A stretch of 50,327 nt of DNA from Solirubrobacteraceae bacterium (GTDB taxonomy: Bacteria > Actinomycetota > Thermoleophilia > Solirubrobacterales > Solirubrobacteraceae): contig JADGPP010000015.1 in the NCBI GenBank assembly GCA_017882375.1, forward strand, positions 1 through 50,327, written 5' to 3'. Positions 1,962 to 49,650 of the stretch are shown one piece after another; position 1 is the first letter of the stretch; each line of letters begins with the position of its first letter. Below the pieces are notes generated by a model. It worked only from the letters and a program-made list of their open reading frames with translations. It was not told where the DNA came from and searched no databases. The position numbers and the translations under genes were made by a program.

Positions 1962-2026
1962 CAGACTTGGTGCGCGATGGTATCTACGCGAGGCGCCAGC
2001 GTATATACGTTGGCGCACCGAGTCTG
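1962..2026 (+). repeat. Interspersed hairpin repeat, copy A
   Basis: An imperfect inverted repeat. The outer arms CAGACTTGGTGCGC (1962..1975) and GCGCACCGAGTCTG (2013..2026) match at 13 of 14 positions; inside, GGTATCTAC faces GTATATAC across a 13-nt loop. The 51-bp core (1969..2019) has a same-length relative at 49342..49392 and a variant, inverted relative at 32666..32781. It lies between two convergent genes. It may be a REP-like or MITE-like non-coding element. Confidence 0.7.
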
Positions 2027-30329: not shown

Positions 30330-30412
30330 AACCAGCTGAAAAAGGCAAACTCGTCGTGAGACGAGGGCGCAAAGTCAGGGATCTCGATGAGATAGCTCGG
30401 CCGCCAGCAGAC
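30330..30412 (+). promoter_or_regulatory. Cyclic-di-GMP-I (GEMM-I) riboswitch
   Basis: Family landmarks occur in order. GAAAAAGGCAAAC ends at 30350. A perfect stem CTCGTC/GACGAG with a GTGA tetraloop follows (30350..30365; GNRA class). Then come GCGCAAAGTC (30368..30377) and a small hairpin ATCTC/GAGAT (30381..30393). The closing strand GATAGCTCGGCCGCC (30391..30405) ends it. GCTG (30335..30338) can pair with CAGC (30405..30408) as the base of P1. The aptamer ends about 6 nt before the GGAGGG ribosome site of the pilin gene, with no room for a classical terminator. Control of translation start is the simplest reading. Confidence 0.87.
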
Positions 30413-32346: not shown

Positions 32347-32624
32347 GTGGACCGTGCTAGGCGGGGAGGTAGCGGTGCCCTGAATCCGCAATCCGCTCTA
32401 GCGGGGCTGAATTCCCTTCTGAGGGATTCGCTCCGGTCGCTCCGTCGTCCGGGGCGTCGATGGTTCGGGTCCCGCGCGGTGTCGGCTTGTGAACCAGGTC
32501 AGGTCCGGAAGGAAGCAGCCTTAAGCGATCCCCGGCAGGCGCAGCGGGCGTTCCCGGACCGGAGTCGTGGGCGGCGATCGGCGATCGGCAGGCGATGTCT
32601 CGACGCGGGGTGCACGGTCCGCTT
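32347..32624 (+). ncRNA. ffs: Signal recognition particle RNA, large (Bacillus-like) type
   Basis: The universal SRP54-binding motif GGTCAGGTCCGGAAGGAAGC is at 32498..32517. Upstream, GTGCTAGGCGGGGAGGTAGC followed by GGTGCCCTG and GCAATCCGCTCTAGC is the Alu-domain start known from the large SRP RNAs of Bacillus. The ends pair: GGACCGTGC (32349..32357) with GCACGGTCC (32612..32620), followed by GCTTTT. The total of about 275 nt is far longer than the 4.5S type. It sits next to dnaX-ybaB-recR (with one gene on the other strand between), as in Firmicutes. The exact ends are my estimate. Confidence 0.93.
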
Positions 32625-32665
32625 TTCGCTCGACAGCGCGTCTTGACGCGGGTGGCCTCTGCGTT

Positions 32666-32781
32666 GTGAGTTCGTTTGCACGCGCAGCGATAGCCATCGT
32701 ATATACGGCGGGTGTGCAGTGAGTTCGTTTGCACGCGCAGCGATAGCCATCGTATATACGGTGTAGCTACCATCGCGCACG
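32666..32781 (-). repeat. Interspersed hairpin repeat, copy B, with an internal 43-bp duplication
   Basis: Two identical 43-bp direct repeats (32666..32708 and 32719..32761), 53 bp apart, each ending in ATCGTATATACGG. On the minus strand the second copy is preceded by CGTGCGCGATGGTAGCTAC (complement of 32763..32781), the same left arm as copies A and C with one changed base in the TATCTAC part. The unit is thus an inverted, partly duplicated relative of the elements at 1962..2026 and 49342..49392. It lies between the SRP RNA and a convergent gene. Confidence 0.75.
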
Positions 32782-32845
32782 CAACACGCGTATGGGAACA
32801 CACACCCCGGCAGTCACGCGAACACACACCAGACAGTCACGCGCG

Positions 32846-49250: not shown

Positions 49251-49341
49251 GCGATGAAGTCAAGCAGATACAGCGACCTGCGGGCGGACCTGGGCTGGGT
49301 CGAGGGAGCGGGCGGGTGTGTGGGTGTTGATTTTTGTTGTG

Positions 49342-49392
49342 CGTGCGCAGTGGTATCTACGGCGGGCGGCTGTGTAAATACGATGGCGCACG
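49342..49392 (+). repeat. Interspersed hairpin repeat, copy C
   Basis: 51 bp: CGTGCGC then GGTATCTAC on the left, a 13-nt loop, GTAAATAC and GCGCACG on the right; the arms are imperfectly complementary over 19 positions. Length and loop size equal copy A (core 1969..2019). It sits in the divergent region between aidB and icd, immediately before the 66-bp repeats. Confidence 0.75.
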
Positions 49393-49588
49393 CTGCGTGC
49401 GAAGCGCAACCACCTCCGCGCGTCCCCGTGCAGGCGCTCGTCGCCGCGCCGGGCGACGCTGCGTGAAGCGCAGCTGCCTACGCGCGTCCCTCTCGCCGGC
49501 GCTCGTCCGCTGCGCTGGGCGGCGCTGCGTGAAGCGCGGCTGCCTGCGCGCGTCCCCCGTGCAGGCACTCGCCGCGCCGCGCCGGGCC
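49391..49588. repeat. 66-bp tandem repeat, three units
   Basis: Units 49391..49456, 49457..49522 and about 49523..49588 each start CGCTGCGTG(C)GAAGCGC-like sequence, contain GCGCGTCCC and end in GGGCG(A/G). They differ by scattered substitutions. CTGCG TGAAG CGCAG inside units two and three can form a small hairpin. They occupy the upstream region of icd, 60-260 bp before its start. A frame is open through all units (66 is a multiple of 3) but shows no coding character. Confidence 0.75.
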
Positions 49589-49650
49589 GTCGGCTGGCGG
49601 GTCGATAGCATCGGCCGCCCCGCCCGCGACCCCGCAAGGACTGCCTGCCA

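Follow-up and report, generated by a model that had tools for sequence, protein, structure and literature searches.

The window analysed here, a stretch of 50,327 nucleotides from a Solirubrobacteraceae bacterium, carries at three intergenic sites (A, B and C) a repeat that an earlier note on this DNA had described as a 51-bp hairpin. The locus raises the question of what is conserved in this repeat, whether it is a hairpin, a mobile element, or a set of sites for a DNA-binding protein, and which protein that could be.

The repeat unit and its copies in the window

The three sites share a 20-bp core, which consists of YGTANATACSATNGC, then TAT or GCA, and then CG, and can be written as YGTANATACSATNGC[TAT/GCA]CG. 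Each core stands first in a unit of about 47–52 bp, where it is followed by an A-rich tract and then by an ACACACC/C-rich end. What had been read as a hairpin of 51 bp is composed of two inverted 20-bp cores, each opening a unit of about 50 bp, while the pair of units measures about 115 bp. The GT-rich stretch that had been noticed in the flanks is real, and corresponds to the C-rich unit ends as read on the complementary strand; the suggestion that the conserved element is nearer 90 bp did not hold against the measured length of the pair. When the window was searched with GTGCGCNNTGGTATCTACG, allowing up to three mismatches, five matches were found versus 0.15 expected, and none of 100 shuffled sequences scored as high. 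The layout of the arrays is polar, with one GTATATAC head followed by one to four body units, and their parts in the window are as follows.

1969..1988, minus strand: array A, body-type core CGTAGATACCATCGCGCACC (unit 1937-1988)
2000..2019, plus strand: array A, head-type core CGTATATACGTTGGCGCACC (unit 2000-2051), 31 bp from its partner
32618..32845, no strand: array B, inserted stretch of 228 bp, from the SRP RNA gene to the stop codon of the convergent gene
32688..32707, minus strand: array B, head core CGTATATACGATGGCTATCG, second, duplicated copy
32741..32760, minus strand: array B, head core CGTATATACGATGGCTATCG, 53 bp from the duplicate
32762..32781, plus strand: array B, body core TGTAGCTACCATCGCGCACG, 21 bp from the head
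49274..49605, no strand: array C, inserted stretch, within the gap that separates the start of the AidB-type acyl-CoA dehydrogenase gene from the promoter region of isocitrate dehydrogenase
49342..49361, minus strand: array C, body-type core CGTAGATACCACTGCGCACG (unit 49310-49361)
49373..49392, plus strand: array C, body-type core TGTAAATACGATGGCGCACG (unit 49373-49424), 31 bp from its partner

The core coordinates confirmed that copies A and C each measure 51 bp end to end, and also that copy B is internally duplicated, as one unit is repeated over 53 bp with identical cores. Array C is devoid of a GTATATAC arm. Its right flank (CGCTGCGTG..GAAGCGC, without a core) is present in three tandem repeats with a 66-bp period at positions 49385-49587, which are located between array C and the isocitrate dehydrogenase gene. 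Elsewhere in the window, a c-di-GMP-I-GGC riboswitch aptamer was detected on the plus strand (30335-30409), with a score just over the gathering threshold.

Number, placement and spacing of the cores

A search of the whole genome with GTANATACSWTNGCKMYC, allowing up to two mismatches, returned 165 matches versus 8 for a reversed control pattern, which rules out that the repeat has no further copies. When the sequence around the matches was read, 152 cores were counted at 61 places; as two of these places were weak, they were discounted, which leaves about 150 cores at about 59 places, so that the many copies predicted from the window were borne out. The places are nearly all intergenic. Using gene positions from a simple codon-usage gene caller, 15 were assigned to convergent, 28 to tandem and 4 to divergent settings, and 12 were at contig ends. 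A bias to convergent gene ends was thus seen only in part, while the clear signal was the avoidance of divergent gaps (Fisher P=3.5e-4). In the purQ-purL gap of contig C1 (L029, 4936-5107), there is a variant core, GCGTATAACCATGGCTATACGC, which on its own comes close to a palindrome and adjoins an AT-rich stretch, and one-base-shorter cores resembling it were observed at C47, C106 and C132:20967, and in G011. On C1, the region between 32613 and 35036 was considered as a candidate gene for the binding protein and rejected, because it is purL.

The distances between inverted cores were 21 bp in 26 non-MITE cases, while the others were mostly 31, 32, 42 or 63 bp; tandem cores were spaced by 51–55 bp, with a mode of 53. 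The eight spacings other than 21 bp that were kept for the phasing test fitted a 10.5-bp period when taken as independent (Rayleigh R=0.97, P=5e-4). Hence, the core spacings are whole helical turns. The polarity of the arrays was also evident, since exactly one arm was GTATATAC in 28 of 35 non-MITE central pairs, and extra units lay on the side away from the GTATATAC head in every MITE copy and in 12 of the 14 arrays that could be scored. Array B, where the head is duplicated, is one of the two exceptions to this rule of extension.

The identity of the two arms within pairs was lower than after random re-pairing (P=0.016), and therefore the hairpin is not the conserved feature. Array A folded far better than its shuffles (z -5.2), arrays B and C weakly better (z -1.2 and -1.5), and one array outside the window folded worse than its shuffles; altogether, three of the five arrays that were folded did not stand out. 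The description of the repeat as a hairpin does not generalise, and the idea that a hairpin, in RNA or as a cruciform, is what has been conserved was rejected on the basis of arm identity and folding. The observed layout would be expected of protein sites arranged on one face of the DNA rather than of a selected hairpin, and the previously proposed protein-binding site centred on GTATATAC gains support as a candidate site.

Mobility and distribution among relatives

About 17 contigs contain near-identical copies of a MITE bounded by the terminal inverted repeat (TIR) GAGGCTTGATGCGGGTT, which was found at both ends of complete young copies, for example on C60 and C116. The TIR copies were mostly preceded by TA, mainly as CTA, with the target TA located in CTAG. 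The MITE copies were often situated at a stop codon, and many of them were at contig ends. The TIR was not seen at window copies A and C, and the TA target was not visible at the window copies; copy B contains one TIR-like stretch, CTTGACGCGGGT, near 32644-32657. In three diverged relatives of the MITE (on C51, C3 and C132) the array was kept while the ends had decayed. In agreement with this, flank positions 61-119 were at a background identity of 0.30 versus 0.94 for the invariant core positions, which is partly an effect of ascertainment, as the copies were found via their cores. The copies in genome G017 have other ends, CTAAAGAGG..CCTCTTTAG, around the same core. The conservation of the cores despite the decayed ends suggests that occupancy by a protein has been maintained, although this observation is only partly independent of the core-based collection. 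No autonomous partner with the TIR GAGGCTTGATGCGGGTT was present among the five IS630-like loci of the genome, the assembly of which is fragmented, and neither the search for the MITE in plasmids or phages nor that for the TIR in IMG/VR gave a match. In one place (L046, C63:1379-2262 of G000), an apparent IS transposase gene terminates immediately next to an array, and this IS seems to be inserted in the flank of the head unit.

The comparison with relatives showed that copies B and C are lineage-specific insertions, absent from most relatives. The gap that contains array B is 228 bp here versus 8–91 bp in 14 relatives, in none of which there was an array. In the gap between the SRP RNA and the next gene in G023 (L130), one degenerate core, CGTATGACGATGGCTATCGC, which escaped the scan owing to a 2-bp deletion, is located at the position of array B, and therefore the B insertion may predate that split. 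The gap with array C is 400 bp here versus 44–220 bp, array-free, in nine relatives that have the gene pair; two other relatives have longer gaps at this locus, which are also free of arrays. Together with the TIRs and the TA target, these empty sites bear out the MITE-like mobility surmised from the window. Of 232 genomes of the order, three contained the inverted pair; these belong to one genus and have 39, 5 and 2 pairs, while weaker related matches occurred in a few further species. The R1 matches in G014, G016 and G018 contained no array on reading. Outside these, the search for the core pair in 84,980 GTDB genomes returned only Hymenobacter palindromes, which were judged unrelated, and the search in IMG/VR returned none. 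The Hymenobacter matches come from nine genomes (L077-L085) with a palindrome matching GCNAWNGTANNTACNNNGTANNTACNWTNGC, apparently an unrelated repeat.

A candidate protein for the arrays

When the neighbourhoods of arrays were compared, one clear array position was common to three species (G000, G011 and G017). It is directly upstream of a small gene (C53:24795-25076 in G000), whose protein product, P0001, is almost invariant in its C-terminal half across the three species. On its own, P0001 gave weak matches to BrnA_antitoxin, RHH_10 and CopG_antitoxin, which were below the Pfam cut-offs (best E 0.015). On Thermus plasmids, the gene for a BrnT toxin is followed by one for a CopG family antitoxin, with which the last 50 residues of P0001 share 62–64% identity. 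The assignment of P0001 to the ribbon-helix-helix (RHH) DNA-binding proteins is based on this homologue, which is above the Pfam cut-offs (CopG_antitoxin 3.5e-14, BrnA_antitoxin 1.9e-6). Because no BrnT-like gene was found in the array loci examined, P0001 looks like an orphan antitoxin-type RHH protein, as judged by homology.

The promoter of Thermus brnTA also carries the core sequence GTATATACCAAAGCATATAC. The stretch GTATATGCTTTGGTATATAC is located 27–39 bp before brnT, and its complement begins with GTATATACCAAAGC, an exact fit to the core pattern; in the 8 kb searched, chance would give 0.04 such matches, even if one mismatch is allowed. On a second Thermus plasmid, with different flanks, GTATATACCAAAGC is kept with one change, while the core was absent upstream of two Deinococcus homologues that are accompanied by BrnT. 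The similarity to the BrnT-BrnA type II toxin-antitoxin operon of Thermus thermophilus (CopG_antitoxin, PF12441/PF14384) thus includes the RHH domain and GTATATACC-A-N-N-GC directly upstream of the operon, whereas here the RHH gene has no adjoining toxin, and the operator-like core is present at about 59 places as multi-site arrays.

Taken together, the sequence comparisons indicate that the repeats are probably arrays of operator sites for an orphan BrnA/CopG-type RHH repressor, which were spread by a MITE targeting TA in CTAG. P0001 would bind the cores as dimers on GTANATAC boxes, and with neighbouring boxes whole turns apart, the RHH dimers could contact each other and assemble on one face of the DNA. 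The array before the RHH gene would serve in autorepression of this gene, which is usual for type II antitoxins. Carried in the TA-target MITE, this array would have spread to gene ends, and P0001 would then occupy the dispersed arrays, bending or coating the DNA there. Such occupancy may serve to insulate or block transcription, to organise the chromosome, or to restrain the element.

The alternatives differ in how they account for these observations. If the repeat were an RNA-level element, such as a bidirectional terminator or a pause or processing site that works as a hairpin at gene ends, this would agree with the location of arrays between genes, with the avoidance of divergent promoters, and with the good folding of array A. 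However, other arrays are not all better than shuffles and their arms are mismatched, the A-tract is on the wrong side for an intrinsic terminator, the direct-repeat units have no shared stem, and no Rfam family matches. Such an element is very unlikely, and no support was found for the processing or pausing site that the earlier note had listed. That note had also raised a REP-like origin, and BIMEs are indeed repeats scattered between genes, in inverted and in tandem copies, of which some bind proteins (PMC2817692); the dispersed, intergenic arrays resemble them in their inverted pairs and tandem copies. A REP/BIME mobilised by a RAYT (TnpA_REP) transposase has nevertheless next to no likelihood, because six genomes of the genus were searched for a RAYT gene and gave no match to Y1_Tnp (PF01797), as against 5 of 14 control genomes with matches. 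In contrast to REP sequences, the single units here have neither a conserved REP stem-loop nor an imperfect palindrome tagged with GTAG/CGTC, and the arms are less symmetric than expected by chance.

The two remaining explanations concern the mobility and the identity of the binder. A purely selfish MITE or BOX-like repeat, in which the cores serve mobility only by binding a transposase or a host factor, and in which older copies have lost recognisable ends, would be consistent with the burst of near-identical copies with a TIR and a TA target, with the absence of most insertions from relatives and the patchy distribution, and with the number of body units, which varies between copies as in BOX. 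On the other hand, the cores are intact while the ends decay, the core is the same in copies from different species although their ends differ, the array is kept before the RHH gene in three species, and the IS630-like genes include no transposase with these TIRs; we regard this explanation as conceivable but rather unlikely. The cores could also be sites for another lineage-specific DNA-binding or nucleoid protein, since the helical phasing and polarity require just some cooperative binder, in which case the RHH gene and the Thermus match would be coincidental. This appears improbable, because it would take two coincidences independent of each other: no array position other than the RHH promoter was found to be shared, and an RHH homologue from another phylum has the same core in the promoter of its own operon.

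An operator array for P0001 would be in line with other members of the RHH group. The repressors MetJ, omega and ParG use several short palindromic boxes per operator, on which dimers bind side by side or in phase, and MatP is an RHH-containing chromosome organiser. The difference is that the putative operators described here are carried across the genome by a mobile repeat. In its architecture, to which the comparison is confined, this repeat resembles pneumococcal BOX, an intergenic and mobile boxA-boxB(n)-boxC element with end modules and variable tandem middle modules (PMC3049150), while the sequences are unrelated and what is conserved here is the phased operator-like cores rather than a fold of the RNA. 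RUP and similar MITEs with IS630/Tc1-like TA targets are likewise non-coding, have TIRs next to TA and insert at gene ends, whereas here no matching transposase was found and the internal array is better conserved than the TIRs.

The individual parts, which are BrnA-type antitoxins, TA-target MITEs, BOX-like modular repeats and protein-binding BIMEs, are already known, while their combination into an orphan antitoxin operator, phased arrays and a MITE was not found in the open-licence literature that was searched. It brings together orphan antitoxins, helically phased operator arrays and MITEs, three subjects which are mostly treated separately. We tentatively suggest, as one possibility, that a toxin-less antitoxin-type repressor may have become a genome-wide binder, whose network of sites was built by a mobile repeat of its own operator in phased, polar arrays, and that these arrays may act as boundaries or architectural anchors at gene ends. 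If the binding is true, the repeat would clearly exemplify how a mobile element can spread the binding sites of one named regulator. The stages in between, in the form of young MITEs, decayed copies and empty sites, could then be read within one genus, and it would be possible to test directly how a bacterial regulatory or architectural network arose.
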